Shown one piece after another: positions 3,619 to 36,849 of a DNA stretch of 64,000 nt. The notes under the pieces were generated by a model, which ran no database searches, was not told the origin of the DNA, and saw nothing but the letters and a program-made list of their open reading frames with translations. Made by a program: the position numbers and the translations under genes. Positions within the stretch are counted from its first letter, which is position 1. The number at the start of each line of letters is the position of its first letter. The DNA is from Deltaproteobacteria bacterium. GTDB taxonomy: Bacteria > Desulfobacterota > DSM-4660 > Desulfatiglandales > Desulfatiglandaceae. The DNA is taken from NCBI GenBank assembly GCA_021737785.1, contig JAIPDI010000029.1, positions 1 to 64,000 of the forward strand, given 5' to 3'.

Positions 3619-5325
3619 TCACGATCTCTCCAGCATCTTCCTCAACTGCTCCGTCCTTTCCGCAATCACTTGACTTTCCCCTTCGCTCAGGGCCTCTTTC
3701 AGGTTTAAGACAGCCCCCTCAATCAGTCGTTTGGAAGTCGTGGCAAGCTTTTTCTCTTTCTCCTCAAGGAAGAGTTCAGCCCCGTGGATCATGCCGTCGG
3801 CCCGGATATTGATCTCGGCCCCTTCCCGCATTTTCATGTCCTCTTCAGCATGGGCCTCTGCTTCCCTGACCGCCTGTTCCACCTCATCTTCGGACAGGAG
3901 AAATGAGGCGTCAATCTTTATGCCGGTTTTTTCCTCAGTATGAAGCTCCTCGGCAGAAACCTTCACCATTCCGTTTACATCGATTTCAAACATTACCTCT
4001 ACCTGGGCCTTTCCCCTGGACAGGGGGGGAATATCGCTCAACTGAAAATTTCCCAGGCTGATATTGTCGATGGCCATCTCCCGCTCACCCTGGAGGATAT
4101 GAAAATCCATCACGGTTTGATTGTTCTCCGCATTGGTGAATATCTGACTGGCAGAGGTGGGGATAGTGGCGTTTCGGGGGATGATCCTGGCAAAAAGGCC
4201 CCCCTCGGTTTCTATCCCCAATGATAGCGGCGTCACGTCCACCAGTACTACGTTATCGATCTCCCCCATCAGGACGCCCGCCTGAACCGCAGCCCCGATG
4301 CCCACTACTTCGTCGGGGTTTATCCTTATAAACGGCTTTTTACGGAAGGTTTTTTCCACCAGATCTCTCACCGAAGGCATGCGGGTAGAGCCGCCCACCA
4401 GCACCACACGGTCAATTCCGTCCGGCGTCAATCCGGCATCGGCCAGGGCCTGCCGTGTCGGACCCAGGAGTCTTTCCCTCAAGTCGGCCGTCAGCTCTTC
4501 AAACTGCGTTCGATCCATCCTTGCCTCGAAGGTCCGGGTCTGGCCGCCAGCCTTTACAAAAGGGAGACAAACCGTCGAATTCCTTCTGTATGACAATTCC
4601 CGCTTGGCCTTCTCGCTCGCCTCCCTGAGCCACTGAAGGGCCACCGGGTCTGATCCTATGTCCACTCCGTATTCGTGTCTGAGCTCACCGAGGAAATGTG
4701 CCACCAGTCTTTCGTCCCAGTCATCTCCGCCCAATCGGGTATTGCCGCTGACGGCCTTCACATGAAACATTCCGTCCCCGAGTTCCAATATGGACACATC
4801 AAAGGTTCCCCCGCCCAGGTCCCACACGAGAATGGTCTGGATATGTTCGCGATCCAGCCCGTAGGCCAAAGACGCGGCAGTAGGCTCATTGATGATTCGC
4901 ATCACCTCCAGACCGGCCATGCGGGCGGCCTCTTTAGTGGCCTGACGCTGAGCATCATTAAAGTAGGCAGGCACCGTTATGACCGCCCTTTTCACCGCTT
5001 CTCCGGTATGGGTTTCCACATCTTTTTTTATCTTCCGCAGGATAAAGGCCGATATCTCCTGCGGCGAATAGGGTCTCCCGTTGAGAGAAACCCTGTAATC
5101 CGTTCCCATGTGCCGCTTGATGGACATGACGGTCTGTTCCGGATTCGAAACGGCCTGGCGCCTTGCCACCGAACCGACCAACAGGTCGCCCCGGGCAGTC
5201 GCTGCGACAACCGAAGGGGTCAGGTTCTCGCCTTCGGCGTTCTTCACCACCCTTGCCCGGCCGTTCTCGATGATCGCAGCCACTGAGTATGTAGTCCCCA
5301 GGTCTATGCCGACCGCTCGTGTCAA
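3619..5325 (-). CDS. dnaK: Hsp70 chaperone DnaK of the gas vesicle island
   Basis: 568 residues with all Hsp70 ATPase signatures: GIDLGTTYS at the N-terminus, VPAYFNDAQRQATKEA, VWDLGGGTFDVSIL, and VLVGGSTRMPSVR. The substrate-binding domain follows (VTPLSLGIETEGG onward). It is shorter than typical housekeeping DnaK (about 640 residues), with a reduced C-terminal lid, and no grpE or full-length dnaJ is adjacent, so it looks dedicated to the gas vesicle island. The start codon overlaps the stop of the upstream response regulator by 4 bases (ATGA), which implies translational coupling. Candidate co-chaperones are the J-domain-GvpF/L protein (12205-13248) and the two CxxCxGxG zinc proteins. Confidence 0.93.
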   Translation of the reverse strand: MTRAVGIDLGTTYSVAAIIENGRARVVKNAEGENLTPSVVAATARGDLLVGSVARRQAVSNPEQTVMSIKRHMGTDYRVSLNGRPYSPQEISAFILRKIKKDVETHTGEAVKRAVITVPAYFNDAQRQATKEAARMAGLEVMRIINEPTAASLAYGLDREHIQTILVWDLGGGTFDVSILELGDGMFHVKAVSGNTRLGGDDWDERLVAHFLGELRHEYGVDIGSDPVALQWLREASEKAKRELSYRRNSTVCLPFVKAGGQTRTFEARMDRTQFEELTADLRERLLGPTRQALADAGLTPDGIDRVVLVGGSTRMPSVRDLVEKTFRKKPFIRINPDEVVGIGAAVQAGVLMGEIDNVVLVDVTPLSLGIETEGGLFARIIPRNATIPTSASQIFTNAENNQTVMDFHILQGEREMAIDNISLGNFQLSDIPPLSRGKAQVEVMFEIDVNGMVKVSAEELHTEEKTGIKIDASFLLSEDEVEQAVREAEAHAEEDMKMREGAEINIRADGMIHGAELFLEEKEKKLATTSKRLIEGAVLNLKEALSEGESQVIAERTEQLRKMLERS

Positions 5326-5954: not shown

Positions 5955-6710
5955 CTACGTCACCGGCAAGGAAATCGTAAAGACCGTTCCATTCTTCCAC
6001 TCACTCTCAACGCCGATGGTCCCGCCGTGGCTGACAACGATTCCATAGGTAGTCTTCAGGCCGAGTCCCACTCCAGAAGGCTTGGTGCTGAAAAACGGAT
6101 CAAATATCCGGATAATATCCTCTTCAGGGATTCCTCCGCCCGTATCCTGAATCCTTGTGACAAAAAAATCCCCCTCGATTCCTGTCGTGATCGTCATCTT
6201 CCCCCCCTCCGGCATCGATTCAACGGCATTGATCATCACGTTTGAAAAGACCCGGTCGATCCGCTCCTTGTCGACATCTGACATCGATGCTCCGGGCGTA
6301 AACCTCTTGCGAACGTCTATGCGCTGCGAGGCTGTCTGGGTCTTTATGGAGTCCAGGATGCCTTCCAGGATATCGTGGATATCGTGAGGCTGGATATTGA
6401 GTTTTGGCGGTCGGGCGCAGTTGAGGAGTTCAGTGATCAGGAAATTGATCCTTTCCGTATTTCTGATGATAATATCGACATGCCTGGCCCAGGGGCTGTC
6501 TTCCGGAAAGGCCTCCTTGAGTTGCTTGACCGAAAGGGACACGTTGCTGAGAGGGTTTCTGATCTCATGGGCAATACTGGCAGCGATTCTCCCCGTGAAC
6601 GCAAGCCGTTCCGAAAAAATGGATTCATCCTCACGATTAAGCTGTTCTCTCGAACGGTCATGCCCTAATTCATTCATTTGCTTCTTCCTCCCACGCTTAC
6701 CGAGCCTCAT
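5955..6710 (-). CDS. Cytoplasmic sensor histidine kinase
   Basis: 251 residues. HisKA H-box SIAHEIRNPLSNV (about residue 47), N-box-like FSNVMINAVESM, G1 box DTGGGIP, F-box FDPFFSTKPSG and G2 box VGLGLKTTYG are all present. There is no signal peptide, transmembrane segment or sensor domain, so the input is probably another cytoplasmic protein. The start overlaps the stop of the upstream GvpA-PH-zinc ribbon gene by 4 bases, and the response regulator at 5322-5939 follows after 15 bases. The two form an evident kinase/regulator pair embedded in the gas vesicle operon. Confidence 0.88.
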   Translation of the reverse strand: MRLGKRGRKKQMNELGHDRSREQLNREDESIFSERLAFTGRIAASIAHEIRNPLSNVSLSVKQLKEAFPEDSPWARHVDIIIRNTERINFLITELLNCARPPKLNIQPHDIHDILEGILDSIKTQTASQRIDVRKRFTPGASMSDVDKERIDRVFSNVMINAVESMPEGGKMTITTGIEGDFFVTRIQDTGGGIPEEDIIRIFDPFFSTKPSGVGLGLKTTYGIVVSHGGTIGVESEWKNGTVFTISLPVT

Positions 6711-7453
6711 GTCAACGCTTCGATTCCTTCAGCCCTCTTAACCGGGCTGATCCAGCCGCACGCCCCACACCCCTCCTGCAACAGCTCCTTTATCAAGGCC
6801 CGTTTTCCACATTGGGGGCAGGTCTCTGTTTCTTCTCCTTCGGCATATTCTTCAACAGGGGGCAGCGTCAGAGGTCCTTGAGGACGAAGCCCTGCTTCTT
6901 CCATCCTGTTTTCTATAGCCTCTTTCAGTTGACGGACATCCAGCGCAGTCAGCCTGCGCACGTCTTCTCCTTCAAGCAGGAGACACAGTTCATCCTTCAC
7001 CCGTTCATCGCGAACCCGATCCCCAACCCTGACCATCAGGCCCCGGATCTTGCTCAGGGGGACTTCAAAAAGTATCTTATTGAAATCCTGATGATAAAGG
7101 AGCAACCTCTCGTCAGTCAAATAGAAACAGGCGTATCTCCAGGCCGTGTAGATTCCCTCTTTTGAATAGAGCGCCCCCAGCATCTTAAGGAGCACCTTTT
7201 CCCCCGCCATCAAGGCATCCTTCTTGTTCTTTCTGTTTTCCCTTTCCCATGCCCTGGTCTTTTCGTCCCATGCCTGCATGATCCCGTATTTGAGCATGGT
7301 CTCCATCCCGGCCAGGGCCGCCCTCAGGTTGACGCCGATCAACGGGATGCCCGCCACTGAAACAATCACATCGGCATGGATCAACAGGCCCTTGTCCAGG
7401 ACCCGGTCAAGGAGGTCTGTCAGGGTTCCATTTGTGTTGCGTTGAGGGGTCAT
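6707..7453 (-). CDS. GvpA/GvpJ-family protein fused to PH-like domain and zinc ribbon
   Basis: 248 residues in three parts. Residues 10-55 are a GvpA/J domain (LTDLLDRVLDKGLLI, VSVAGIPLIGVNLRAAL). Residues 85-185 form a PH/GRAM-like module (GEKVLLKMLGALY, CFYLTDERLLLYH) like that in the protein at 2541-3509. Residues 213-240 are a zinc ribbon (CPQCGK, then CGACGW) shared with the GvpA-family protein at 9228-9587. GvpJ/M/S-type GvpA relatives are minor vesicle proteins thought to act in nucleation or tips; the extra domains suggest an adaptor. The ATG lies inside a repeat array without a clear ribosome site. Confidence 0.85.
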   Translation of the reverse strand: MTPQRNTNGTLTDLLDRVLDKGLLIHADVIVSVAGIPLIGVNLRAALAGMETMLKYGIMQAWDEKTRAWERENRKNKKDALMAGEKVLLKMLGALYSKEGIYTAWRYACFYLTDERLLLYHQDFNKILFEVPLSKIRGLMVRVGDRVRDERVKDELCLLLEGEDVRRLTALDVRQLKEAIENRMEEAGLRPQGPLTLPPVEEYAEGEETETCPQCGKRALIKELLQEGCGACGWISPVKRAEGIEALT

Positions 7454-7563: not shown

Positions 7564-8631
7564 TCACACAAAGGAATAGGGGGGCCAGGGTCCTGTATAT
7601 CGAACTGAAAAGTCTTCAAGGGCATCGATCTTTTCCAATTCATCACCCAATTCCCTGCTCCCTCCCTTTGGAAGCAGGCAGGATAGATTCAGGAGCATCT
7701 GTTTCTCTTCATTTTCGGTTTTCTGGGTCTTTTCGACACGAATATCATCCGCATGAGGAATTATTTTTTCATAAAATTCCCTGAAATACTGATCCGCCCG
7801 CTTCTCCATTTCGTTGCGCAACAGCCCTTCCAGTTTCTGCCGGTACATATAGGCGAGGCCGCGCGGCTTTGACTCTATTTCGTTGCTCAGGTTCCTAATT
7901 TCCGGATTCTCATCGGCCATTTTTTGCGCGGCCGTTCTCTTATCCCACAGGACCTGAACGCCGTATTCGGCCCTGCCTCTGACCTTTTCCATTTTTGCCT
8001 TCAGATTGTCATAATCATCGTCGAGCCATTTCTTCATAGTCTCCTCCGGATCAAGCGCGGCATCCCCCTGAATGATGGTGTCGAAGCCGATCGGGATGAC
8101 CGTTCCGAACCTGTCCCAGGCTGCATCCACAACCTTCTGATGGGTTATGACCCACCCTTTCACAATCTCCGGGTCTTCTGATTGGTATGGCCTGGCAGGA
8201 CAATTGTGGACGATTGCGGAGAGACCGTTATAAGGGATTGAATAGACCGCATTTTCTTCTAACCCTATGTTGCCAAGGCTCCCACCTTCGGTGCTGTCGG
8301 CAATGCAGTAGAGGTACCTTCCGAACGCGGAATGGGGAGCGCGGAGCGCGGAGTTTGGATTTCCAGGGTCCGTGGTCTGAGGTCTGATGTCCGATGTCCT
8401 ATGTCCAAGACCAGGGGACAGATCAACAACGGGTTGGTTCTCCGCTATTTCAGAAGGTTCTCCCTGCAAATCTCCTAATGCCTTGCATACCGATTCGTGA
8501 ACGGCTGCCTTGAGTTCGGGGAGAAGGGAGTTCTTCACCATTTCCTTAATCAAGTCGTCATGTTCGCCGATGACCATCTTGATTTCTTGTCGTACAAGCG
8601 TTTTGATGACATCTTTCAGGTTCGTCGCCAT
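7564..8631 (-). CDS. GvpF/GvpL family gas vesicle protein with N-terminal extension
   Basis: 355 residues from ATG 8631. Residues from about 105 are a GvpF/L domain: RYLYCIADS start, AHQKV-like ITHQKVVDAAW, IPIGFDTII, and the family C-terminal signature GPWPPYSFV. GvpF/L proteins are essential accessory proteins that bind GvpA during early assembly. Residues 1-70 form an added amphipathic helical region not seen in the other copies here. The linker (about residues 74-104) is encoded by intergenic-type repeat DNA read in frame, rich in Ser, Pro, Thr and Ala. A start at 8673 is possible, but its first codons come from the repeat array. GGGTGA lies upstream of 8631. Confidence 0.87.
   Translation of the reverse strand: MATNLKDVIKTLVRQEIKMVIGEHDDLIKEMVKNSLLPELKAAVHESVCKALGDLQGEPSEIAENQPVVDLSPGLGHRTSDIRPQTTDPGNPNSALRAPHSAFGRYLYCIADSTEGGSLGNIGLEENAVYSIPYNGLSAIVHNCPARPYQSEDPEIVKGWVITHQKVVDAAWDRFGTVIPIGFDTIIQGDAALDPEETMKKWLDDDYDNLKAKMEKVRGRAEYGVQVLWDKRTAAQKMADENPEIRNLSNEIESKPRGLAYMYRQKLEGLLRNEMEKRADQYFREFYEKIIPHADDIRVEKTQKTENEEKQMLLNLSCLLPKGGSRELGDELEKIDALEDFSVRYTGPWPPYSFV
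8318..8410. repeat. Intergenic-type repeat read through inside a gvpF/L gene
   Basis: On the minus strand, GGACATCGGACATCAGACC-like units followed by CGCGCTCCGCGCTCC and TTCCGCGTTC lie in frame between the N-terminal extension and the GvpF/L domain. The repeat classes are the same as those between genes. Confidence 0.65.
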
Positions 8632-8644
8632 TCGATTGTCACCC

Positions 8645-8761
8645 GTTTTGTTGTCATGTGGCTGCGCTGTCATTAGGCTTCGCCGTCAGTTGCCCTTCGG
8701 GCGTCATTCGCTGCGTTGTCATTTCGCCTGCGGGCGTCATTCATGGTCATTTTGTTGTTTC
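8645..8761. repeat. AATGAC mini-hairpin array
   Basis: Minus-strand units include AATGACCATGAATGAC, GCCCGCAGGCG, AATGACAACGCAGCG, AATGACGCCCGAAGGGC, AACTGACGGCGAAGCC and AATGACAGCGCAGCC. The GAACGCGGAACGCGG stretch at 8775-8800 continues the array into the 3' end of gvpK. Confidence 0.8.
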
Positions 8762-9127
8762 TTAATCTCCCGCGTTCCGCGTTCCGAGCTCCGCGTTCAA
8801 AAGGTTGTCATTCAATTTTGGATCCTGGCCTTCGGACATGGGACCGCCCATCATCTTATCCAGGAGTTCATCCACAATGTTGTCGAGGCCGTCCCGGACC
8901 GACTTGACCGATTCCGCAATCCCCTGCTCGGTTTTCATCTCCTCAATGGCCGTGTCCAGATCCATGAGGGCCTCTCCCAACCGGTCTATCTCCTCCTCTG
9001 TCAGGCTTCCCCCTTCCACCCTCTTCAACGCCTGGAGCTTCAGGGCGTCTTTGATGATCTCCACCAAGGCCACGACCAGCCCCAGGACCCCATGTTTCAG
9101 ATTCTTTTCGTCAATATCTATGGGCAT
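8762..9127 (-). CDS. gvpK: Gas vesicle protein GvpK
   Basis: 121 residues. The body matches GvpK: KNLKHGVLGLVVALVEIIKDAL, a short loop, LTEEEIDRLGEALMDLDTAIEE and a final helix. GvpK is a conserved accessory protein needed for vesicle formation. The last dozen residues (from LNAELGT) are encoded by a GAACGCGG-type repeat, so the natural C-terminus has been replaced or extended. There is no strong ribosome site before the ATG. It lies between the zinc-ribbon GvpA relative and the extended GvpF/L gene. Confidence 0.9.
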   Translation of the reverse strand: MPIDIDEKNLKHGVLGLVVALVEIIKDALKLQALKRVEGGSLTEEEIDRLGEALMDLDTAIEEMKTEQGIAESVKSVRDGLDNIVDELLDKMMGGPMSEGQDPKLNDNLLNAELGTRNAGD

Positions 9128-9227: not shown

Positions 9228-9587
9228 CTATTGACCAATGATCCTTTCACGGTCGTTGGCCCTGGCGCTCACCCAGCCGCACCAGGGGCAGCCGGTACCC
9301 ATAAGATCCTCCACGGAGACCCTCTTTTCACACTGCGGGCAGGTTTCTCTAGGGACTACCGCCTCCTGCCAGACCGGCACTTGGAGGTCTGTCCCGGAGG
9401 GGAACTCCAGCCCGTATTTCGCGGCTGTCTCAAAACTTGCGAGGGCGGCCCGGATCTTCACCCCTAACAACTCAACCCCGGCCACCGATACCGCAATATC
9501 TGCGTTGATCACCAGGCCCTTGTCAAGGATCCTGTCAATAACGTCAGCTAATCCGGCTCCGCTTTCTCTCGACGGTTCCAATGCCAT
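9228..9587 (-). CDS. GvpA/GvpJ-family protein with C-terminal zinc ribbon
   Basis: 119 residues. Residues 10-60 are a GvpA/J domain (LADVIDRILDKGLVINADIA, VSVAGVELLGVKIRAAL). Residues 80-110 hold a zinc ribbon with CPQCEK and CPWCGW, matching the ribbon at the end of the 6707-7453 protein. GvpA relatives of this type are minor shell or nucleation proteins; the metal site could aid docking or folding. GAGG lies 7 bases before the ATG. Confidence 0.88.
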   Translation of the reverse strand: MALEPSRESGAGLADVIDRILDKGLVINADIAVSVAGVELLGVKIRAALASFETAAKYGLEFPSGTDLQVPVWQEAVVPRETCPQCEKRVSVEDLMGTGCPWCGWVSARANDRERIIGQ

Positions 9588-9721: not shown

Positions 9722-9967
9722 TTAGCCTAAAATGACCTCCAGGATGCCCCCGCTGAAGACCTTGCCGATAATTTTTTCAGCACGCCTGTGGAGTTTCACT
9801 ATCCGGTAATAGGTGATGTTTCCCTGGGTCGCAAAAATGCTGAGGAGATCATCTACCAGATCAAGCTGCACGTCTTCCTCGCAGAAGCCGGGAAGATCGG
9901 CCACAACCAGCGTCCTCTTAGCCTGATCGAAGACGTCAACCCCGGCTTGTTTGAGCCCTGTTTCCAT
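9722..9967 (-). CDS. Short Hsp20/GvpH-like protein
   Basis: 81 residues. LVVADLPGFCEEDVQLDLVDDLLSIF matches the first strands of an alpha-crystallin domain, and VFSGGILEVIL matches its last conserved strand (NGxLEVxL). This is a minimal Hsp20-like fold, far shorter than usual GvpH. Its start lies inside the 3' end of the upstream zinc-finger gene (32-base overlap, different frame) with GGTGAAGAAG before the ATG, which suggests coupling. A 134-base gap downstream shows no gene. Confidence 0.7.
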   Translation of the reverse strand: METGLKQAGVDVFDQAKRTLVVADLPGFCEEDVQLDLVDDLLSIFATQGNITYYRIVKLHRRAEKIIGKVFSGGILEVILG

Positions 9968-10715
9968 TCTTCTTCACCCTTACCACGCCCTTCCCCTGGC
10001 ATGCCATGCAGGGGAGTTTGCTGTTGGGATCTTCGCCGGTTCCTCGGCACCGGATGCACGAGGTTGCCGGCGATGATACAGCCACCACGCCTTTTCCCCC
10101 GCATACCGTGCATTTCAGCGGGGTGCGGCGCTGAGCTTCTCCTGTGCCCTTGCAATAGGCGCATATAACAGCCGGAGGGATCACGGACACACTGCCGGTC
10201 CCCTTGCACACCTGGCAACGGACGCCCCTTTGTCTTTGCCCGCTTCCCCTGCAAAATCCACATACATAGCTGGTTTCGGTCATGACGGAAAAGGACACGG
10301 TTCCGTTTCCTCCGTTCACCCGGATGCAGCCATTATTGCCCACGCATACGGCATGCCACGGGATCTCTTCCTGGCCTGGCTTAAAAAAAACAGCCGCGCT
10401 CTCGCTTTTCACTGCTCTGGCTGCTGAAAACGACCGCCAATGGAATTCCTCCACCTGCGCCTTTCCCGTACCGCCATCCGGTGACTGGGTCCGGCGGGTG
10501 CCGGAGTTCCAGCCAAGGGCCTTTTGCCCTTTCACCGTAATCTGAAAATGCCCGTGTGTTTCCTGGTCAAGATAGTCGTCCCTCATCAGATTCATGCAGA
10601 GGACCCTCGCGTATGCGGGATCGATCCCTAACTGCCGGCTCACAAGGCGAGTGGAGGTCCGTCCGTCTTCCTTTCCCACCGTCTTTAATGCCTTCCTTTC
10701 CGTTCCCGTAACCAT
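9936..10715 (-). CDS. Winged-helix-like protein with six DnaJ-type CxxCxGxG motifs
   Basis: 259 residues from ATG 10715 (TAGGAG 8 bases upstream). The N-terminus (about 1-70) looks like a winged helix (TSTRLVSRQLGIDPAYARVL, then DDYLDQETHGHFQITVKG). After an unrecognised middle, residues 150-250 carry six motifs: CGFCRGSG, CQVCKGTG, CAYCKGTG, CTVCGGKG, CIRCRGTG and CMACQGKG. Ordinary DnaJ has four such motifs, binding two zinc ions; six would fit three. There is no J-domain. It likely binds unfolded GvpA or partners as part of the local chaperone set. A sister protein is at 18415-18768. Confidence 0.78.
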   Translation of the reverse strand: MVTGTERKALKTVGKEDGRTSTRLVSRQLGIDPAYARVLCMNLMRDDYLDQETHGHFQITVKGQKALGWNSGTRRTQSPDGGTGKAQVEEFHWRSFSAARAVKSESAAVFFKPGQEEIPWHAVCVGNNGCIRVNGGNGTVSFSVMTETSYVCGFCRGSGQRQRGVRCQVCKGTGSVSVIPPAVICAYCKGTGEAQRRTPLKCTVCGGKGVVAVSSPATSCIRCRGTGEDPNSKLPCMACQGKGVVRVKKNGNRAQTSRG

Positions 10716-10726
10716 CAAGCCATCTC

Positions 10727-10993
10727 CTAACTCTCAATCCCCTCAGTATCAATCCGCCTTCGCATGCCGGTCCGCCGGAAGTCCAGCATAGTCCCTTCTT
10801 CATCTAACCGGGTCTCATAAACGGCCAATATGTCCATCCCTTCAGGTATGGAATGCTTTTCCACCACCTCCAGGGCCACCAGCCACCCATCTCCTCCCTT
10901 TTCCACCCGGATCGTAGATGAGATATCCAGACCAGTAAGTACATTCAACTCAACCCGTGCTCTCTTCACAATTTCTCCCATCCCCATGCCCAT
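10727..10993 (-). CDS. gvpO: Gas vesicle protein GvpO
   Basis: About 88 residues from ATG 10993, which has GGAGG 5 bases upstream; ATGs at 11014 and 10987 are alternatives. GWLVALEVVEKHSIPEGMDILAVYE and the following LDFRRTGMRRR match GvpO, a small accessory protein needed for vesicle formation. It sits directly after gvpG (43 bases) and 12 bases before the zinc-finger gene, in one operon. Confidence 0.88.
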   Translation of the reverse strand: MGMGMGEIVKRARVELNVLTGLDISSTIRVEKGGDGWLVALEVVEKHSIPEGMDILAVYETRLDEEGTMLDFRRTGMRRRIDTEGIES

Positions 10994-11035
10994 TTTCTCC
11001 TCCGTTCTGCGCATGACCTGCTCTCTTGCTTGCGC

Positions 11036-11283: not shown

Positions 11284-12036
11284 TCACCAATTCACCACAA
11301 TCTCCACAAAATTGCAGGGAGGGATAGGCCCCACATATTTGAAAACCATCCTGCCGTCGTACTGAGCGGTCATCTTTTCCACTGCGAGATCAAAGGCCGC
11401 TTCCTTGTCCCTTTCCACCAGAAATGCAGCGTTGGTGATCATCCGATCCCCAAAAGGATCGTTTAGCTTTCGCTCTACCCACAGCCCGTCAAGGGGATCG
11501 AGAAGGGCCTGTTCCTCAAGATCCTTCCTCGCCTCAAGACCCTTCTTCACCATTTCCCCAAGACGGACCTGGTCTCTTTGCGGCCCTCCTTGCCGCTTCA
11601 TTAGCCGGTCCCGCAACCGGCCTATGTCGCTGTTGTCAGCCACGATCTCCTCGAAAACAGGCTTCATATCCTTCCATATGGCCTTGAGGCCCAGTTCTAT
11701 CTTATCCCGCATATAATGGAGGATACCCCTGAATTCCGCTTCCCTTTCCTTCAGGAGCTTTTCCACAATCAGATCCGTCCCCTCAGCCACGGTGCCAAAA
11801 CGAACGGGCAGCATGGGATATTGCTTCATCACTTCCTCCATGACCTTCTGATGGGCCATGGTATTTGCACGGGTGACTGGATATTGAGAAATGGGAGAAT
11901 CGCTGATGACTGCGCCTACATCCCGGTGCCGGACCGTATAGACCTCATTGTTCCCATCTCCGATGCCCGTGAAGCCGAAGCCCTTGTCTTGATCGGTTTC
12001 GATAATCGCGTAAATGTATTGGCCTGCTTCTGTCAT
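11284..12036 (-). CDS. GvpF/GvpL family gas vesicle protein
   Basis: 250 residues from ATG 12036 (GAGGGA 5 bases upstream). It shows the GvpF/L pattern: GQYIYAIIETDQ start, HRDVGAVISDSP, AHQKVMEEVMKQYPMLPVRFGT, and the C-terminal GPIPPCNFVEI. Of the four family members in the island this one is closest to a plain GvpF/L in length and build. It leads the tight gvpF/L-gvpG-gvpO run. An AATGAC array lies immediately upstream, and reading the ORF further up would take in repeat-encoded residues. Confidence 0.9.
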   Translation of the reverse strand: MTEAGQYIYAIIETDQDKGFGFTGIGDGNNEVYTVRHRDVGAVISDSPISQYPVTRANTMAHQKVMEEVMKQYPMLPVRFGTVAEGTDLIVEKLLKEREAEFRGILHYMRDKIELGLKAIWKDMKPVFEEIVADNSDIGRLRDRLMKRQGGPQRDQVRLGEMVKKGLEARKDLEEQALLDPLDGLWVERKLNDPFGDRMITNAAFLVERDKEAAFDLAVEKMTAQYDGRMVFKYVGPIPPCNFVEIVVNW

Positions 12037-12044
12037 ACGATTCC

Positions 12045-12204
12045 CTCGTTGGCCTACGGCCGTCATTTGCCCTTCGGCCGTGATTCATGGTCATTCAGTA
12101 GTCATTCGGTTGTTTCTTAATTTTCCGCATTCCGCGTTCCGCGTTCCGCGTTCAGTAGGAGGTCGTCTTTTCAATAAACAATCATCAATCGACAATCACC
12201 AATA
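12045..12204. repeat. AATGAC and GAACGCGG repeat array
   Basis: Minus-strand units include GAACGCGGAACGCGGAACG, AATGACTACTGAATGACC, GGCCGAAGGGC and GGCCGTAGGCC. The left part repeats CAATCATCAATCGACAATC-like units on the plus strand. Confidence 0.75.
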
Positions 12205-13248
12205 TCAAGGGGTTTCGGACCGCGGACCCTGGTCTTCCACCGGCTGCACCCTCATCCACTTTCTGACATCCTTTTCCCTGAAGGAGCAGCCGTTTTCAGC
12301 GCAATAGTCGTTCACCAGTTTGTATGCCGCATTGATCTTTTCAAAATGCTTGTGCCCATTCGCGTCTCCCGGACACCTGTCTGGATGGAATTTCTTGGTC
12401 AGCTTCCAATAGGCGTCACGGATTGCGGCAATGGTTGTTCTCTCTTCAAGTTCAAGCGTTTTTCTTGCCCCATTTAACAGAACATAATCCACATGCCTGA
12501 TCTCCAGGGTTCGAAAGCTGTATGGCGGAAGGGGACCGATGATTCGGAAATTGATCCGGTCCTCATATTGCTGATCCAGTTGGGCGATACGGGCTTCCAG
12601 TGAAACCGCGTGGTCTTTCCGTACTAAGGCAGCCACATTCATGATCATGGAATCGTCCATCAGGGGGTGAACATGATGTGCTTCCGTCTGAGGCAGAATC
12701 GCATCCATGATCTCATGACGGTACGCCTCTCTCTTCTGGTCCAGCAAGGCCTTGACGCGCCTTCCGACCTTCACCCTTAGATCAAACCGTTCAGCTTCCG
12801 ATGTCGGAGATGCATCCTTTTTCTGTGCCTTGATCTCCTCGGCTTCTCCTATCTCGGCCAGGACAGGAGCCAGGTCCGGCCAGAGGGCAACGATGTCCAG
12901 TTCGATCCTGTTTTCCATCTCCCTGAGCGCGGCAAGGACCTGGTCATGTCCCTGCTCAAGGGCGATCTGGATCGAAGCCCCCCCCTCCAAGACGGTTCCA
13001 AATTTGACAGGAATGATCTGCTGGGTTTTTAAGACAGTTTCGAGGACCGACTGGTATACCGTCAGATATCTCAGAAGGGTTTCCTTGGGCATGGCATCAA
13101 ACGCCATAGGGGGAAGGGCGCTGATCACTGCGGCAACATCCCGGTAAGGGACGGCGGAGACCTCTACCCCTTCGATCCCTATGGGGCCGAAGCTCTGCAG
13201 CCGATCTGCACCGATAAAGCCGTAGAGGTATGTTCCGTGTGTGGGCAT
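12205..13248 (-). CDS. GvpF/GvpL protein fused to a C-terminal J-domain
   Basis: 347 residues from ATG 13248 (GGAG 5 bases upstream). Residues 1-255 are GvpF/L (GTYLYGFIGAD, YRDVAAVISALPP, QIIPVKFGTVLEGG, GPLPPYSFR). Residues about 262-320 form a J-domain: helix I/II AIRDAYWKLTKKF, the invariant HPD loop (FHPDRCPGDAN), and FEKINAAYKLVNDY. J-domains stimulate Hsp70 ATPase, so this protein should deliver its bound client, presumably GvpA, to the DnaK at 3619-5325. The final EDQGPRSETP segment comes from repeat DNA. The family assignment and J motif are direct; the delivery role is inferred. Confidence 0.9.
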   Translation of the reverse strand: MPTHGTYLYGFIGADRLQSFGPIGIEGVEVSAVPYRDVAAVISALPPMAFDAMPKETLLRYLTVYQSVLETVLKTQQIIPVKFGTVLEGGASIQIALEQGHDQVLAALREMENRIELDIVALWPDLAPVLAEIGEAEEIKAQKKDASPTSEAERFDLRVKVGRRVKALLDQKREAYRHEIMDAILPQTEAHHVHPLMDDSMIMNVAALVRKDHAVSLEARIAQLDQQYEDRINFRIIGPLPPYSFRTLEIRHVDYVLLNGARKTLELEERTTIAAIRDAYWKLTKKFHPDRCPGDANGHKHFEKINAAYKLVNDYCAENGCSFREKDVRKWMRVQPVEDQGPRSETP

Positions 13249-13254
13249 TCGTTC

Positions 13255-13380
13255 TCCATCATTCGCTTCACGGTCATTAGGCCTTCGGGCGTCAGTCGCT
13301 TCGCTGTCATTTGGCTTCGCCGTCAGTTGCCCTTCGGGCGTCATTGATTGTCATTCATTGACCACTGAATGACATTTTAA
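13255..13380. repeat. AATGAC mini-hairpin array
   Basis: Minus-strand reading gives AATGACAATCAATGACGCC, CCCGAAGGGC, AACTGACGGCGAAGCC, AATGACAGCGAAGCG, ACTGACGCCCGAAGGCC and AATGACCGTGAAGCG in sequence. Confidence 0.85.
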
Positions 13381-13384
13381 GCTT

Positions 13385-15511
13385 TTAACGCCCCTCCTTC
13401 AACGCCTCCTGAAAATGGCGGTCTGAAATCTTCAAATCAGAATAATCATCCTTTCCACTTTCTATGAATTCCCGGATGGCCCTCATGGCTGCCTTCCGGC
13501 AAATGGACTCCAGATCTGCGCCCACAAGACCCTCCAGGGCGTCGGCAAGCCCGACCAGATCCACGTCCCCGGCCAGGGGCTTCCCCCGTGAATGGACCTT
13601 GAGGATCTCGAGTCTGGCATCTTTGTCCGGCACAGGGATTTCAAGATGGAAATCAAATCTTCCGGCCCGAAGCAGTGCCTGGTCAATGATGTCCAGCCGG
13701 TTTGTGGCTGCCAGAACCACGATCCCCTTCAGCTCCTCAATCCCGTCCAGTTCGGTCAAGAACTGGCTGATGACCCGGTCTGCCACATGAGATGCCGCAT
13801 CCGAACCCCGTCTGGGCACCACGCTGTCGATTTCGTCGAAAAAGATGATGCAGGGCGATGCTTGTTTGGCCTTCTTGAAGATCTCCCGGACCCCTTTCTC
13901 ACTCTCTCCCACCCATTTGGACATGAGTTCGGGCCCTTTGACAGAAATGAAATTGACCTCGGATTCCGAGGCCACGGCCTTGGCCAGGAGCGTCTTCCCG
14001 GACCCAGGGGGACCGTAGAGCAGTATCCCCTTAGACGGGCTGGTTCCGGCCTGTTTGAACAGGTCGCCGTATTTCAGGGGCCACTCAATGGTCTCCTTGA
14101 GCACGCGCTTTGCCTCCTCCAGCCCCCCCACATCTTCCCACTTGACATCCGGGACCTCGGTAAACACCTCCCGAATGGCAGAAGGTTCCACCTCTTTGAA
14201 GGCCTCCCTGAAGTCATCCATGCAGACCTGCAGTTGCATCAACGTATCATATGGGATCTCTTCCAGTTCAAAATCGATCCGGGGAAATATCTTTCGCAGG
14301 GTGGCCATGGCCGCCTCCCTGGAAAGGGCCTCTAGGTCGGCCCCCACAAAGCCGTGGGTCATTTCGGCAAGACGCCTCAGGTCCACATCTTCGGCCAGGG
14401 GCATCCCCCGGGTATGAATATCCAGGACGGCCAGACGGCCGTTCATGTCGGGGATGCCAATCTCGATCTCCCGGTCAAAACGGCCCGGTCTCCTCAGTGC
14501 AGGATCCAGGACATTGGGGATATTGGTGGCGCCAATCACGATGACCTGGCCCCTGGAGGAAAGGCCGTCAAGGAGAGCCAGGAGCTGGGCCACCACTCGC
14601 TTTTCCACCTGCTTTTCGCCCCCCATCTCCTCCCGCTTGGGCGCAATCGCGTCGATTTCATCCAGAAAAATAATGCTCGGGGCCCGGGCCGAGGCCTCCT
14701 CGAAAATCTTCCTGAGGTTGGCCTCGCTCTGTCCGTAGAATTTATTCATAATCTCCGGTCCGCTGATGGTCCGGAAAAAGGCATCGGTCTCATTGGCCAC
14801 AGCCCGGGCAATGAGGGTCTTGCCGCACCCCGGCGGCCCGTGCAGCAATACTCCCTTGGGAGGATCAATGCCCAGGCGTTCAAAGACCTGGGGATATTTC
14901 AGAGGGAGTTCGATCATCTCCCTGATCCTGCGGATCTCTTTTCCGAGGCCGCCGATATCCTCATAAGAGATTCGACTCCTCCCCTCCCCCGGCTCTTTCT
15001 TCTGCTCGATCTCCATGGCGGTTTTGGGATGGATCATCACCACCCCGGCAGGTCTTGTGGAGACCACCTTGAAATCCTGTGTGCGGGAACCGATCAGTCT
15101 TGCCCGCACCAGGTCCCCTTCCATCAGGGGAAGCCCCTCCAACAGGCTGCCGATATACCGGGCATCGTAGGATCGCATCAGCGTGAGGGGAGCAACGACG
15201 ATTTTCTGCGCCGGTTGAAAGTCGCACCAGCCGACCGTGACCTTTTCATCGATCCCCACCTGCGCGTTTTCCCTGGCAATGCCGTCCAGGCGGATAAATC
15301 CCTGGCCCCGGTCTTCCATATAAGCGGGCAGGACCTTGGCCACGGTTTCCCTTTTTCCCGTCAGTGAAACCACATCGCCCACTTCAACGCCGATCTTCTC
15401 GAAATCGGCAGGGTCCAGCCGCACAATGCCTCGGCCCACATCCTTTGAGCCGGCCTCGGCGACCTTTAATACGATCGTTCCACTTTTCCCTCTCGGTTTT
15501 TCAGTATTCAT
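13385..15511 (-). CDS. CDC48/VCP-type AAA ATPase
   Basis: 708 residues. An N-terminal double-psi-barrel-like domain (about 10-95: [19 protein letters not shown]) and a second N-subdomain are followed by two AAA modules. D1 has GPPGCGKT and [11 protein letters not shown]2 has GPPGSGKT and [10 protein letters not shown], each with its second-region and arginine-finger sequences. CDC48-type ATPases unfold or remodel proteins. Such genes are known in some gas vesicle clusters; here it probably disaggregates or remodels vesicle proteins. Transcribed into the gvpF/L-J-domain gene across a repeat array. ATG at 15511 has only a weak ribosome site. Confidence 0.93.
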
Positions 15512-16344: not shown

Positions 16345-17100
16345 TCAAACCAGTTTCATCTCGATATTGACGAAGTTGAAGGGGGGCGCGGGTCCCACCA
16401 CCTTGAAATCGGCCGTGTCTTTGTAGATCTTGGCCAGGTCTTCCACGAGAAAGTCGAACTGTTTTTCACGTGTCCGGTCGATGAGGAATACCGCGCTGAG
16501 GAACATATCGTCGCCCACGGGATCGTTCCTGCGGAGATCCAGGGCCACCCGCTTAAATTTGTTTAAGATCTTTTCTTCTTCCACTTCCTTTTTCCTGGCC
16601 AGGGCCGCCTTGACCGCCTTCCCAAGGGCGATCTTTTCATCGCTGTCCGGGTCACCGGCATGGCCTTCAGCCCTTTTCTTTCCCTCCCTCACACCCGGGT
16701 CGTTTCTGGCAATTTCATCAAAAATCCCCTTCATGTGAGTCCACCTGGCCTTGAGGCCCATCTCCACCTTGTTGTCCAAATCCCGGAGCATTCCTTTGAA
16801 TTCGCCGTATCGCCTCCTCAGAAAGGTTCGGATCTCTTCGGCGCTGTTTGCGATCGTACAAAACCTGAGGGGCAACACCGTATAGTCCTTCATCACCTCT
16901 TCGATGACCTTTTCATGGGCCACGAGGTTCTCGGGGTCTATCACATATTTGCTTACCGGCGAGCTGCTGATGACTGCACTGATGTCTTTGAATCCGATAG
17001 TGGAGACAACATCCCCCCTTTTTCCGATGCCGATGGGTCCGAAGTTACGCCCTTCATTCCCCTCTATGATGCAGTACACATATTTTCCCTCTTTGGTCAT
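16345..17100 (-). CDS. GvpF/GvpL family gas vesicle protein
   Basis: 251 residues from ATG 17100 (AAAGGAG 9 bases upstream). Family features: GKYVYCIIEGN, FKDISAVISSSP, AHEKVIEEVMKDYTVLPLRFCT and GPAPPFNFVNI at the C-terminus. A charged, lysine-rich insertion (about residues 155-185) sits in the middle. It follows the coiled-coil protein at 17145 and gvpN. This is the most promoter-proximal GvpF/L in the island. Confidence 0.9.
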   Translation of the reverse strand: MTKEGKYVYCIIEGNEGRNFGPIGIGKRGDVVSTIGFKDISAVISSSPVSKYVIDPENLVAHEKVIEEVMKDYTVLPLRFCTIANSAEEIRTFLRRRYGEFKGMLRDLDNKVEMGLKARWTHMKGIFDEIARNDPGVREGKKRAEGHAGDPDSDEKIALGKAVKAALARKKEVEEEKILNKFKRVALDLRRNDPVGDDMFLSAVFLIDRTREKQFDFLVEDLAKIYKDTADFKVVGPAPPFNFVNIEMKLV

Positions 17101-17144
17101 ATGTCGCCGCTCCTTTGAGTGTGCCTCCTCAATAGCTCCCCCTC

Positions 17145-17459
17145 TCAATAATCGACCTTCATGACCTTCATATTGCCCCTGGGCTTGATTCTTATTTCGC
17201 CGGTATTGTCCGCCAGTTGAGTCCGTTTTTCCTTCTCTTGGGCCTCCAGTTCGGCGATCCTCGTCTCGATGTCTTGAATCCTCTCTTCTATGGTCTTTCT
17301 TCTCTGGTTGATACTGACCAATTCCTTGATGGAGAGGGCCAGATTGTTTCTCAAGAGATAGATTTCCGCATCGTTTGCCCGGTCGGCCTTAGGCAGGGAA
17401 CGGTGTTTCATTCCCATGAGCGTCTTGATGTGCCCAAGCGTTCGAATCTCTTTTGCCAT
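17145..17459 (-). CDS. Small coiled-coil protein of the gas vesicle operon
   Basis: 104 residues, no family recognised. Residues 28-85 are a strongly predicted coiled coil (ALSIKELVSINQRRKTIEER, then IETRIAELEAQEKEK). The N-terminus is basic and the C-terminus ends in RIKPRGNMKVMKVDY. It lies between gvpN (19 bases upstream) and gvpF/L (44 bases downstream), so it is very probably a vesicle accessory or regulatory protein. Length and the helical-plus-basic-tail build suit a scaffold or adaptor. Confidence 0.7.
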   Translation of the reverse strand: MAKEIRTLGHIKTLMGMKHRSLPKADRANDAEIYLLRNNLALSIKELVSINQRRKTIEERIQDIETRIAELEAQEKEKRTQLADNTGEIRIKPRGNMKVMKVDY

Positions 17460-17478: not shown

Positions 17479-18396
17479 CTAGCAGATCTGATCGATCAAT
17501 TCATTAATGACCTCTTTGACCTTCGCATGGCTCCCGGCCATGCCGATCCGGCTGGTTTCGGAGGAGAGGATGTCCATGCAGACCTGCCTGAATACCGGGT
17601 CCTTTTTGTCCACACTGGCCTGGCGGACCGCAAGGGTTTTGGCAATCATGATGCAGCCGCGGATGGTCGGGGCAAATTCATAGGCGTCGGAATCTCTCAG
17701 CCCCCTTACAATCCTGACGATCTTGGTGGCATCCCCATTGACAAGGCCTGACTTGAATTCGGTGATCCGCACCTCGGTCTCCTCGTCAAAATAATCGATG
17801 TCGAGCGTGATCATCCGATCCCGCAAGGCGTCCTGACTCCTGTGAACCCCGGCATATTCCTCCGGATTGCTGGTAAATATGGCTGTAAAATCCGGGTGGA
17901 CCTTCAGGTAGTTCCCCTCTCCATGGCGCGGGGCAGGAAGATCCAGCATCCTCTCCTGAAGGACCGACAGAAGGATATTGTTGGCCTCGGGCCGTGTTCG
18001 GGTAAACTCATCGTATATGAGGGTAAATCCGTTCTTGCAGGCCACGGTGAGACGATTGTCCGCCCATCTTTTATGCATATCCTCTTCGGTCTTAAGGACC
18101 GTATGAATATAGTTGTCCACCACCTTGCGGCTGCGAAAACCGGTCTCCCCGCCCACCAGATCGGATGTGGAAAATTCCTCGTCGCCGTGGATCATGACCA
18201 CGGGCCGGCCGATCATGGCCGCCACGTGCATGGCGAGAGTGGTCTTGCCGGTCCCGGAAATCCCCCGAAAATGGATCGGAAAACCGGCCGCAATATACGA
18301 CATGGCCCTTTCCGCAATATCACGCACATAGGGCGTTTCCACAAAATTCGGAAGGGAGCGAGGCTCCAGAACCGTTATGCTTCCATCGATTGACAT
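17479..18396 (-). CDS. gvpN: Gas vesicle AAA+ ATPase GvpN
   Basis: 305 residues, normal length for GvpN. The P-loop GISGTGKT (about residues 45-52), Walker B FTLIYDEFTR, and sensor-1 region AIFTSNPEEYAG are clear, with the MoxR-like layout typical of GvpN. GvpN is required for efficient vesicle growth and works with GvpA/GvpC. It lies 18 bases after the six-motif zinc protein and is followed by the coiled-coil gene. Confidence 0.95.
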   Translation of the reverse strand: MSIDGSITVLEPRSLPNFVETPYVRDIAERAMSYIAAGFPIHFRGISGTGKTTLAMHVAAMIGRPVVMIHGDEEFSTSDLVGGETGFRSRKVVDNYIHTVLKTEEDMHKRWADNRLTVACKNGFTLIYDEFTRTRPEANNILLSVLQERMLDLPAPRHGEGNYLKVHPDFTAIFTSNPEEYAGVHRSQDALRDRMITLDIDYFDEETEVRITEFKSGLVNGDATKIVRIVRGLRDSDAYEFAPTIRGCIMIAKTLAVRQASVDKKDPVFRQVCMDILSSETSRIGMAGSHAKVKEVINELIDQIC

Positions 18397-18414: not shown

Positions 18415-18768
18415 TCAACGACCACTAACCACTCCCCTGCCGCCGCATGTCAGACAGGGGAGATATTGGCCCGGGGCCCATCCCCTCCCATGGCAATGGG
18501 GACAATCTTCTGCCGGCGCCGTTGCCTTCACTACCCCCTTACCGCCGCAAACGGTACAGACCAGACGGCGTTGAGGCTGAACACCGGTCCCCTTACAATA
18601 TGCGCATTTTATGAAAGGCCCCCGGATGGTCACCCTGCCCTTCCCTCCGCAGACCTGACAGGCAGATTGGTCGGATAGAAGTTCAAACGGGTCCATCCCG
18701 GTGCCTTGACAAAAGGCGCACTTCAGGGGATCTTTCCCCTCAACCTGCAGGTCTGCTTTAAACGTCAT
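18415..18768 (-). CDS. DnaJ-type zinc-finger protein with six CxxCxGxG motifs
   Basis: 117 residues from ATG 18768 (AAGGAG 8 bases upstream). Nearly the whole protein is six cysteine motifs: CAFCQGTG, CQVCGGKG, CAYCKGTG, CTVCGGKG, CPHCHGRG and CLTCGGRG, with a short N-terminal segment. There is no J-domain. It looks like the stand-alone counterpart of the C-terminal half of the 9936-10715 protein, and the closely similar CAYCKGTG/CTVCGGKG centre suggests a shared origin. Probable zinc-dependent client-binding or thiol chaperone for vesicle proteins; directly precedes gvpN. Confidence 0.82.
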   Translation of the reverse strand: MTFKADLQVEGKDPLKCAFCQGTGMDPFELLSDQSACQVCGGKGRVTIRGPFIKCAYCKGTGVQPQRRLVCTVCGGKGVVKATAPAEDCPHCHGRGWAPGQYLPCLTCGGRGVVSGR

Positions 18769-18878
18769 TGTCTCTCTCCTTCCGGGCACTGCCTTGCCCG
18801 GCAACATACAGCAGACGGTATGCGCCATTCGGGGATCGATACCACCCGTAGGCTGCACATCCATTCCGACCTTATTTT

Positions 18879-18949
18879 CACCGCAAGGCGCAGAGAACGC
18901 AAAGGGACTTGTGTTTTTGTTCACTCTGGACCTTTGCGTCTCCGCGGTG
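18879..18949. repeat. Inverted repeat of the CACCGCAGAGACGC type
   Basis: CACCGCAAGGCGCAGAG and GAACGCAAAGG on the left pair with CCTTTGCGTC and TCCGCGGTG on the right, giving an imperfect hairpin of about 70 bases between the GvpC-like and zinc-finger genes. Confidence 0.6.
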
Positions 18950-21481: not shown

Positions 21482-21685
21482 TTACGCGGTCGCGGTGAGA
21501 CCGATGGCTTCCGCGTATTTGAGATAGGTCTCAACACCAGCCACCACGGCCCTGGCCTCAACGGCCAACAGTTCGATGCCCACCAGGGATACCCTGGCCC
21601 ATGCATCTACCACAACACCCTTGTCCAGAATCCTGTCGACAACCTCTGCCAGACTCGAGGATGCCATCGCTTTTTCCATTGCCAT
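21482..21685 (-). CDS. gvpA: Gas vesicle structural protein GvpA (second copy)
   Basis: 67 residues. It has the classic GvpA core: [36 protein letters not shown] and [13 protein letters not shown], which forms the ribbed shell wall. It differs from the upstream copy by one residue (ARAVVAG here, ARVVVAG there) and a handful of bases. AAAGGAG precedes the ATG at good spacing. Its position behind the first copy means it is probably co-transcribed from the sigma-54 promoter at 22040-22055. Confidence 0.97.
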
Positions 21686-21783
21686 AATAAAATCTCCTTT
21701 CACTCTTTTAGGCTGCGATATGTGCCTTTTCTGTTGATGCGCCGAGCTGCAAGACAGCCCGTTCTCAGACGGATCACCAACCC

Positions 21784-21987
21784 CTACGCGGTTGCGGTGA
21801 GACCGATGGCCTCAGCGTATTTGAGATAGGTCTCAACACCAGCCACCACGACCCTGGCCTCAACGGCCAACAGTTCGATGCCCACCAGGGATACCCTGGC
21901 CCATGCATCTACCACAACACCCTTGTCCAGAATCCTGTCGACAACCTCTGCCAGACTCGAGGATGCCATCGCTTTTTCCATTGCCAT
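21784..21987 (-). CDS. gvpA: Gas vesicle structural protein GvpA (promoter-proximal copy)
   Basis: 67 residues, the main shell protein, near-identical to the copy 98 bases downstream. The core includes [35 protein letters not shown] and [10 protein letters not shown]; the C-terminus is short (LTATA) compared with many GvpA proteins of about 70 residues. A strong GGGAGG lies about 9 bases upstream. It is the first gene after the sigma-54 promoter, as expected for the most abundant vesicle protein. Confidence 0.97.
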
Positions 21988-28416: not shown

Positions 28417-29508
28417 CTAATTACCCTTCGCCGCTATCTTGACCTCCAAGATCCCATTCTTGTACGTCCACCTCATATCCTCTACATTGGCCTCTCGAGA
28501 CAGGAGCACCTCTTTCTGGTATTTTCGATTCGGGTCCTCCGCCCTGATATTGAGGATGTCCCCTTGAATACCGAGGGTTATGTCTTTTTCGTCGATCCCA
28601 GGCATCTCGGCCACCACATGAATCCCATCGGATTCGTCGAACACGTCCACGATGGGCTCCCGCACCTCTTCGACCACCGGCCCTTTGGGCGTCCGCTTGA
28701 TATTGCCGAACGGTTCCACCGACGGCCTGCCGTCAGCCAGGGTGCGCACCCTGACCCCGTAGACGCCCTTGAGGTCTTTTAGCCCCCTGATCTTGTCCAG
28801 TCCGCTGAAATCGATTTCACCCGATTTGGACAGCTCTTCGCCCTTTTCCGCCAGCTTGTTCGCGGCATCGATCAGACTGCCCAGGCCCTTGAACAACCCG
28901 CCAAGCCCAAAATCAAAACCGACCCCACCATTCTTCTCTTCGTTTTTCCTTTTTCCGTCCATTTCTTTTGCCTCCTTCTCTGGCTCTGCGGCCCTTGGTG
29001 TTTGAATCTCCCAGACCCCCCGATTCTCGACGCACAACAGCTTGTTCGCCTCCAGAACCGATTTCAGTCCCTTCACCAGACCGTACCCGGCCAGACTGGA
29101 CAGGATCGGAATGGAACTGACCACGGATGACGATACATTTAGGGACGCGCCTGCGATGGTCCCCAGACCGGCAAGTATCCCCGCAGGCGTCAGTTCCCTT
29201 AACATTCCACTGGTGGCAAACAACTCCGGATTCTCGCCCAACTCCTCGATAATCTGTGAAAACCGGTCCTTGTCTGTTTCTGACAAACTCTGAAATCTGG
29301 ATATTCCAATCACCTGGATCGCCTTCAATCTGTTCAAAATGTCGTCTGAGGGCGCCGTCTGTCCCGCCTCGATCCTCATGATCGTACTGCGAGCAACGCC
29401 CAGCGTTTTGGCAAGCTCGGCCACTGACATGCTGCCGAACCTTTGTCGCAGTTCCTTGAGAACCCTGCCGCAGTTCTCCCGAGTCACCCATTTAGACGTT
29501 CCTTTCAC
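28417..29508 (-). CDS. XRE-type HTH protein fused to GvpH/Hsp20 domain
   Basis: 363 residues. Residues 10-65 are an XRE helix-turn-helix ([20 protein letters not shown]). Residues 100-150 are hydrophobic, glycine/serine-rich ([33 protein letters not shown]). From residue 183 the protein matches Gvp[21 protein letters not shown], then [11 protein letters not shown], and an Hsp20 domain ([27 protein letters not shown]). In haloarchaea GvpH represses gas vesicle transcription, so a DNA-binding fusion fits a repressor. A strong internal ribosome site allows a separate GvpH product starting at 28962. Confidence 0.85.
28960..28979 (-). promoter_or_regulatory. Internal ribosome site and ATG for a separate GvpH product
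   Basis: Inside the XRE-GvpH gene, minus strand, AAGGAGG lies 8 bases before ATG 28962 (protein start MDGKRKNEE). Use of this start would give a 181-residue GvpH without the HTH. Confidence 0.55.
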
Positions 29509-33901: not shown

Positions 33902-34061
33902 GGGTCATCAGGCCTGGGGCCGTCATTCGCTTCATTGTCATGAGGTTATTTTCGATCTCCCCACTCCGCGTTCCGAGCTCCGCGTCCCGGAGACGGTCAC
34001 TCCGTTGGCGTTCAGTGGTCGGCCGCGGGCCTTTCAATACTCGATTTTCAATGCTCAAGTC
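33902..34061. repeat. AATGAC and GAACGCGGAGC repeat array
   Basis: Minus strand: GGACGCGGAGCTCGGAACGC, AATGAAGCGAATGACGGCC and TGATGACCCATGACC, the last including the ATG of the downstream Hsp70. A GAGCATTGAAAATCGAG stretch lies at 34035-34065. Confidence 0.7.
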
Positions 34062-35885: not shown

Positions 35886-35895
35886 GGAATACTCC

Positions 35896-36666
35896 TTACT
35901 CAATTTCCACCTCTGCCGGTGCGATAATGGTGGGATCCTGAGAACCTGACAGGGTAGGGAGATTCAGACCGGTAGTCCGCCAGCCCCGGTGCTGCAAGGT
36001 CCCTCTGAACGGGGGCCGGCCGGACACATTGCCTGTGAGCCGGATGCTGTTGGCGTCAAACCCGGCGTCAACCATTATCGATTCCCCTTCGTCCCTGTCG
36101 ATGACGGGCTTGGGGGCCACATATTTATTCAGACTTTCCCGGCAGCTCTCCTGTATCCCCCTGACAGCAGCCCCAATCTGAGCGTCATCATAGGCCTGAA
36201 GGTTCTCCTGTAAAAAATCCACCAGCCGCCCTTCCCTCTGCAAAAGAGAAAGGAGATGAAGAGATCTCCGCTGATCGATCCTTGCCTGCGCTTTCTTCTC
36301 CTCGGATGACTGTTCAGGGGGTATTGCCATCTCTTTCCCTGCCCTGACCGGTGGTGACGGTGCGACCCGGGTATCTCCTGTCCTCCCCTTCCGAATCGCC
36401 GAACGAAGGTTCAACCAGACAAGAAATCCGATAACCGCGAGACCTGCTGCCAGAACCGAAGCAACTCTCAGGGTTATATGCCGCCAGGAAAGTTCAATTT
36501 CAGCCAACAATTGAGGATCCAGGACCTTCTGTTGGTGTGTATCCAGACTCTCCTTGAATAGTCCCAATTCCCAATACCCGACACCGGCGAGCACCATCCC
36601 CAAAACCAGAAACCAAACCAAAATCCAGAGTGCCAACTGACGAGAAGAATTATCTGATGTTTTCAT
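35896..36666 (-). CDS. DUF2760 membrane-anchored protein
   Basis: 256 residues from ATG 36666 (GGAGG 4 bases upstream). Two transmembrane helices are visible (LALWILVWFLVLGMVLAGVG and VASVLAAGLAVIGFLVWLNL), followed by a polar linker and the DUF2760 domain (RLVDFLQENLQAYDDAQIGA, then IRLTGNVSGRPPFRG, GWRTTGLNLP, IIAPAEVEIE). DUF2760 genes are regularly found with this pair of Hsp70s; the membrane anchor suggests that the chaperones act at the inner membrane. First gene of the operon. Confidence 0.87.
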   Translation of the reverse strand: MKTSDNSSRQLALWILVWFLVLGMVLAGVGYWELGLFKESLDTHQQKVLDPQLLAEIELSWRHITLRVASVLAAGLAVIGFLVWLNLRSAIRKGRTGDTRVAPSPPVRAGKEMAIPPEQSSEEKKAQARIDQRRSLHLLSLLQREGRLVDFLQENLQAYDDAQIGAAVRGIQESCRESLNKYVAPKPVIDRDEGESIMVDAGFDANSIRLTGNVSGRPPFRGTLQHRGWRTTGLNLPTLSGSQDPTIIAPAEVEIE

Positions 36667-36849
36667 GTTGCCTCCCTCACGCGTCCTTTCATCAAAACCC
36701 AATATTAAGGGCCAAATCTCAGATTTCAAGCTTCGACGTTAATTCGAACCAGGCGCCCCTATAATTCTTCGGGGGCGCGCTGTCTTATAGAGAGCTCTGA
36801 ACTTCCTGGCAACCTCATTCCTGCGTTGTTTAAATACCATCTCTGCTCC
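36667..36849. other. Upstream region of the Hsp70 operon, no gene
   Basis: A GC-rich stretch (GGGGGCGCGC) followed by AT-rich DNA. No confident promoter or ORF is seen. Confidence 0.4.

Follow-up and report, generated by a model that had tools for sequence, protein, structure and literature searches.

A gas-vesicle (gvp) island of a Deltaproteobacteria bacterium encodes a protein, here called GvpF-J, in which a complete GvpF/L domain is followed by a C-terminal J-domain with an intact HPD motif. Both domains and both families are already known, but their fusion is unreported in the open-access literature searched, where we found no paper on a GvpF/J-domain (DnaJ/Hsp40) fusion or a gvp-specific Hsp70 lineage and no ATP-driven Hsp70 chaperone tied to GvpF. 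We consider GvpF-J to be probably a client-specific J-domain protein of the class C type that holds subunits of the GvpA type and uses its J-domain to recruit Hsp70 and activate it. The presence of GvpF-J in many bacteria, and of a gas-vesicle Hsp70 in part of the lineage, suggests that gas-vesicle building can use a dedicated ATP-driven chaperone.

The fusion gene in its gas-vesicle island

The window, i.e., the whole stretch of 64,000 nucleotides that was analyzed, carries a gvp island in which all gvp genes are co-directional on the minus strand. Their order is GvpA (21784/21482), zinc-finger protein, GvpN, GvpF/L, Cdc48-like ATPase, GvpF-J, GvpF/L, GvpO and then a further zinc-finger protein, GvpJ-like protein, GvpK, GvpF/L, GvpA-family protein, a two-component pair and Hsp70, with the following features:

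21482..21703, minus: GvpA shell protein (second copy at 21784-21987)
18415..18924, minus: second standalone DnaJ-type CxxCxGxG zinc-finger protein, without J-domain (PF00684 above cut-off)
17479..18396, minus: GvpN-like AAA_5 ATPase (equivalent annotated gvpN elsewhere)
16345..17148, minus: GvpF/L paralogue without J-domain
13385..15511, minus: Cdc48-like AAA+ ATPase (Pfam), directly upstream of the fusion
12205..13248, minus: GvpF/L~J-domain fusion gene, 347 aa (longest ORF 12205-13344, 379 aa)
12514..13236, minus: GvpL/GvpF domain (PF06386) of the fusion (Pfam; Foldseek to GvpF structures 4QSG and 6L5D)
12511..12537, minus: GPLPPYSFR motif at the end of the GvpF/L domain (14 aligned fusions all share P-L-P and F)
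12307..12459, minus: J-domain (PF00226) of the fusion (Pfam; model pLDDT ~80 over helices I-III)
12379..12387, minus: HPD motif of the J-domain, invariant in all fusions
11284..12066, minus: GvpF/L paralogue without J-domain
10727..11014, minus: GvpO
9936..10718, minus: standalone DnaJ-type CxxCxGxG zinc-finger protein without J-domain (PF00684 above cut-off)
9228..9587, minus: GvpJ/GvpA-family protein
8762..9127, minus: GvpK
7564..8673, minus: GvpF/L paralogue without J-domain, 369 aa, extended N-terminus
6707..7453, minus: GvpA-family protein with long C-terminal extension
3619..5325, minus: island Hsp70, 568 aa, nucleotide-binding and beta substrate-binding domains intact, lid shortened

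The preliminary description had placed the fusion at 12205-13248, and these coordinates hold, with the gene on the minus strand and the ATG at 13248 as likely start. The 347-aa form is the likely protein because a GGAG motif lies directly 5' of this ATG and its position agrees with the starts of homologues. The same description had seen a GvpF/L domain (GPLPPYSFR) and a C-terminal J-domain with intact HPD in a single protein, to be verified with profiles for PF06386 and DnaJ; both indeed match above their curated cut-offs and in one frame, PF06386 at 7.7e-51 (173.9 bits, cut-off 23.6) over positions 1-243 of the 245 in the profile and PF00226 at 2.3e-11 (44.1 bits, cut-off 27.8). A PDB sequence search likewise led from the first part of the protein to GvpF (4QSG, 6L5D) and from the second part to J-domains. 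With 63 bits against 200 and 57.5 bits against 350, the protein stays far below the NCBIfam GvpL/GvpF equivalog cut-offs. PF06386 and PF00226 are the only Pfam domains; a G/F region, a zinc finger and C-terminal substrate domains are absent, and the fusion is not a class A or B DnaJ.

An AlphaFold2 (AF2) model built from seven sequences has a mean pLDDT of 66 and domain packing of moderate confidence (a run with three sequences gave a poor GvpF half). In this model, a GvpF-like fold is followed by a low-confidence linker at ~239-252 and by J helices at 252-265, 273-287 and 296-319, with HPD (288-290) between helices II and III. Foldseek matched 4QSG at E 3e-8 and probability 1.00 over 249 columns, so that the first half is, as modeled, a GvpF fold; the global superposition is poor (TM 0.25) because of the moderate confidence of the domain packing. 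Many J-domains were matched at probability 1.00, among them DnaK-bound 5NRO_B at 1.4 A over 53 columns.

Several further observations were made around the island. The motif ATGACNNCGAAG occurs nine times against 0.16 expected, in several cases directly upstream of genes; its sites lie at 2338-2365, 7492, 9202, 13299, 15569, 20543, 22402 and 27445, with one inside the upstream-ATG extension of the fusion ORF, and a stricter 20-base form of the motif is absent from the genome. The zinc-finger protein at 9936-10718 possibly has an N-terminal winged helix, and locus L009 carries several relatives of the two zinc-finger proteins. Near the island, the gene at 28417-29508 combines an N-terminal helix-turn-helix with a C-terminal Hsp20-like domain and possibly encodes a chaperone-type regulator. 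A set of three genes at 31100-36729, distinct from the gvp Hsp70, encodes a DUF2760 protein and two Hsp70-like proteins, one of which carries DUF3731.

Conservation and origin of the fusion

Including that of the window, we found 24 distinct fusions (25 records), mostly from several classes of the window's phylum. All 24 show the two domains in identical order and contain HPD. About ten relatives were found among 395 genomes of this phylum. More came from the class to which the window belongs and from those of G176 and G255, in which the majority of gvp-bearing genomes carry the fusion. L009 and L010 show 47% identity to the window's protein over almost its full length, and Pfam confirmed both domains in ten further fusions, with PF00226 above cut-off. 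Many of the fusions stem from genomes that are drafts or metagenome-assembled, and the seemingly identical 11,674-base gvp contig with the same gene coordinates in L067 (G255) and L115 (G528) was counted once; its presence in two genomes suggests cross-binning or a shared element. L010 is a 5.9 kb contig labelled Patescibacteria with a Cdc48 82% identical to that of the window, and it looks like a misbinned piece of a window-type gvp cluster. The 469-aa protein of L073 (1199-2608) joins a weak Hsp20-like stretch, GvpF and a J-domain, with the first part of the GvpF domain replaced; this architecture could be real or an assembly join.

Another fusion lies on the complete plasmid pOA238_160 of an isolate, Octadecabacter arcticus, where it is annotated merely as "GvpL/GvpF family protein". 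This organism makes gas vesicles, and the J-domain goes unmentioned in its description (PMC3646047). In the plasmid search, the J region was matched by Octadecabacter alone and the other 16 records matched GvpF/L only; the viral contigs searched held no relatives of the fusion. That a frameshift (which the preliminary description had allowed for), a misassembly or a chance read-through merely joins two genes was not borne out, and its probability is negligible given a one-frame architecture that recurs in all these proteins including the isolate's plasmid copy.

An alignment of 14 fusions (24-56% identity to the window's) has 11 invariant columns, three of which are HPD. By pairwise dN/dS (0.12-0.42 for the J half, 0.20-0.30 for the GvpF half), the J half is under purifying selection just as the GvpF half is, and judging from its sequence the J-domain is apparently functional.

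The fused members form a paralogous GvpF/L clade of their own. Of the 24 fused domains in a tree of 111 GvpF/L domains, 23 fall into one group (support 92) together with two unfused rows, and the remaining one, L070, sits beside this group on a long branch. Neither unfused row was accepted as a true unfused member: L109 runs off the contig end, and L127, which has no gvp neighbours, is broken inside the GvpF domain. For 70 J-domains, 95% of the bootstrap trees contain a branch with all 25 fused ones on the same side; with only 84 columns, this is no more than suggestive. The trees of both halves are consistent with a single fusion and later spread, with Octadecabacter as a likely, though uncertain, horizontal recipient on a long branch. 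Small standalone J-proteins of the same phylum (L088-L107) resemble the J-domain of the fusion (EAR..L.L...AT..EI...YR...HPD...AY...YC....YSF) and share its YC....YSF tail, but they are only ~100-150 aa long and without a GvpF/L domain, and the fusions lack the C-terminal WW..RFG..P.W tail found in most of them.

The island Hsp70 and its association with the fusion

The preliminary description had taken the fusion as a physical link to an Hsp70 of the same island; such a link is putative, and the Hsp70 gene (3619-5325) lies in the co-directional island, has intact J-docking features and belongs to a gvp-specific lineage. Its product gave an Hsp70 match of 664.9 bits, and an alignment with E. 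coli DnaK shows that it retains the phosphate loops, the R167-equivalent arginine and the hydrophobic interdomain linker VVLVD; the same loops, arginine and hydrophobic linker are kept across the cluster Hsp70s. R167 and the interdomain linker of DnaK matter for J-domain action (DnaK-J complex, PDB 5NRO). All 13 rows of cluster Hsp70s fall into a single clade (support 97), separate from the DnaKs of the same genomes, and this clade occurs here in gvp clusters only (13/13). With 568 aa compared to 636-638 aa in DnaK, the window's Hsp70 misses the DnaK-type tail; given its separate clade and the lack of a full lid and tail, it is not a housekeeping DnaK. Besides the island Hsp70, the genome holds one further full Hsp70, a DnaK of 640 codons at another place, and three partial Hsp70-like matches, and DnaK is present in every fusion genome checked. 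The fusion had also been offered as an explanation for the absence of a separate DnaJ, which is right insofar as the island has no other J-domain but does not extend to the genome, with its housekeeping DnaK and 14 J-domain matches besides the one in the window.

Among the judgeable clusters, 11 carry the fusion and Hsp70, none Hsp70 without the fusion, five the fusion without Hsp70 and ten neither, for a Fisher p of 7e-4 across clusters that are not independent. On the GvpN and Cdc48 trees, the fusion and the cluster Hsp70 each change only once, and the p-value is therefore not independent evidence; we rejected a correlated gain of both in favor of co-inheritance from a single evolutionary event. 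The Cdc48 tree (unrooted) places the clusters with neither, with the fusion only and with the fusion plus Hsp70 each on one side of a branch. At least five fusion clusters have no local Hsp70 (L062, L067, L069, L117, L118), so that housekeeping DnaK may be a further partner of the J-domain.

Proposed function and comparison with known systems

One study proposes that GvpF is the primary partner of GvpA2, acting transiently and like a chaperone (PMC11445434), and GvpF binds GvpA in its monomeric form (PMC9501494). By analogy with this published work, GvpF-J would bind the same kind of client, and the joining of a J-domain to a chaperone-like GvpF gives it the layout of a client-dedicated J-protein; Hsp70 recruitment, the choice of partner and the direction of the client cycle are what we infer beyond this. 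The GvpF/L half would bind a hydrophobic GvpA-family shell subunit, the C-terminal J-domain on its short flexible linker would dock Hsp70 at this client, and by triggering ATP hydrolysis it would make Hsp70 clamp the subunit or pass it on. The natural partner in the window would be the island Hsp70, with clusters that have none relying on housekeeping DnaK. We see about an even chance that the dedicated Hsp70 is the main partner of GvpF-J, and it seems a toss-up whether a dedicated machine of GvpF-J adaptor and gvp-only Hsp70 builds the shell in a whole lineage of gas-vesicle systems. Speaking against a client-specific J-protein that recruits Hsp70 are the four GvpF/L paralogues in the window, any of which might bind GvpA, the other J-domains of the genome, the fusion clusters without local Hsp70 and the single change of each trait.

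The clusters without local Hsp70, Octadecabacter included, together with the DnaKs of the fusion genomes and an unrooted Cdc48 tree compatible with the fusion preceding Hsp70 recruitment, would also fit a J-domain that works with housekeeping DnaK while the island Hsp70, with no particular tie to GvpF-J, serves another step such as GvpA-like tip proteins or disassembly. We regard this as unlikely, given that all 11 judgeable Hsp70 clusters carry the fusion and that this Hsp70 is a long-maintained, gvp-only clade. Less probable still is a distributed DnaJ, an extension of the client-specific J-protein rather than an exclusive alternative, in which zinc fingers would be supplied in trans by the two CxxCxGxG proteins of the island. 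Both of these exceed the PF00684 cut-off and carry several CxxCxGxG motifs each, but zinc-finger proteins also occur in gvp clusters without fusion or Hsp70 (L082, L120, L122, L125, L126), and many fusion clusters yielded none; as their distribution does not track the fusion, we rejected them as its obligate partners.

J-folds with other roles exist, and the Cdc48-like gene stands beside the fusion in many clusters (also in L009, L010, L063, L064, L066, L067, L108, L110, L117 and L118), as might be expected if the J-domain were a structural or regulatory module for dimerisation or for docking Cdc48 or GvpN that no longer activates Hsp70. However, it is the activation of Hsp70 that requires the HPD loop, whereas the fold does not, and the invariance of this loop in 24 diverged proteins makes such a role highly improbable. 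A client-specific GvpF-J would bear on how the very hydrophobic GvpA stays soluble and feeds the growing gas vesicle, for which GvpF is the proposed chaperone. Its position beside a gvp-specific Hsp70 opens an ATP-driven hand-over to direct testing, and the GvpF-J/Hsp70 parts might raise gas-vesicle yield in engineered reporters.

Like other members of the GvpL/GvpF family, GvpF-J has a complete GvpF/L domain and is encoded in a gvp cluster with GvpA, GvpN, GvpK, GvpO and other GvpF/L paralogues, but it differs by its additional C-terminal J-domain and its own paralogous clade. With class A DnaJ it shares the J-domain fold and HPD but not the G/F linker, zinc finger or C-terminal substrate domains. 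HscB and HscA are a client-dedicated J-protein and dedicated Hsp70 for the iron-sulphur scaffold IscU, and they similarly combine a client-binding domain and a J-domain with an operon-linked, specialised Hsp70; in GvpF-J the client domain is GvpF/L and the clients would be gas-vesicle shell subunits, and the comparison implies no particular kinship in sequence. Auxilin, which recruits Hsc70 to clathrin coats and drives their uncoating, resembles GvpF-J in having a C-terminal J-domain that delivers Hsp70 to a structural coat protein, though the client domains are unrelated and GvpF-J would more likely act in assembly than in uncoating.
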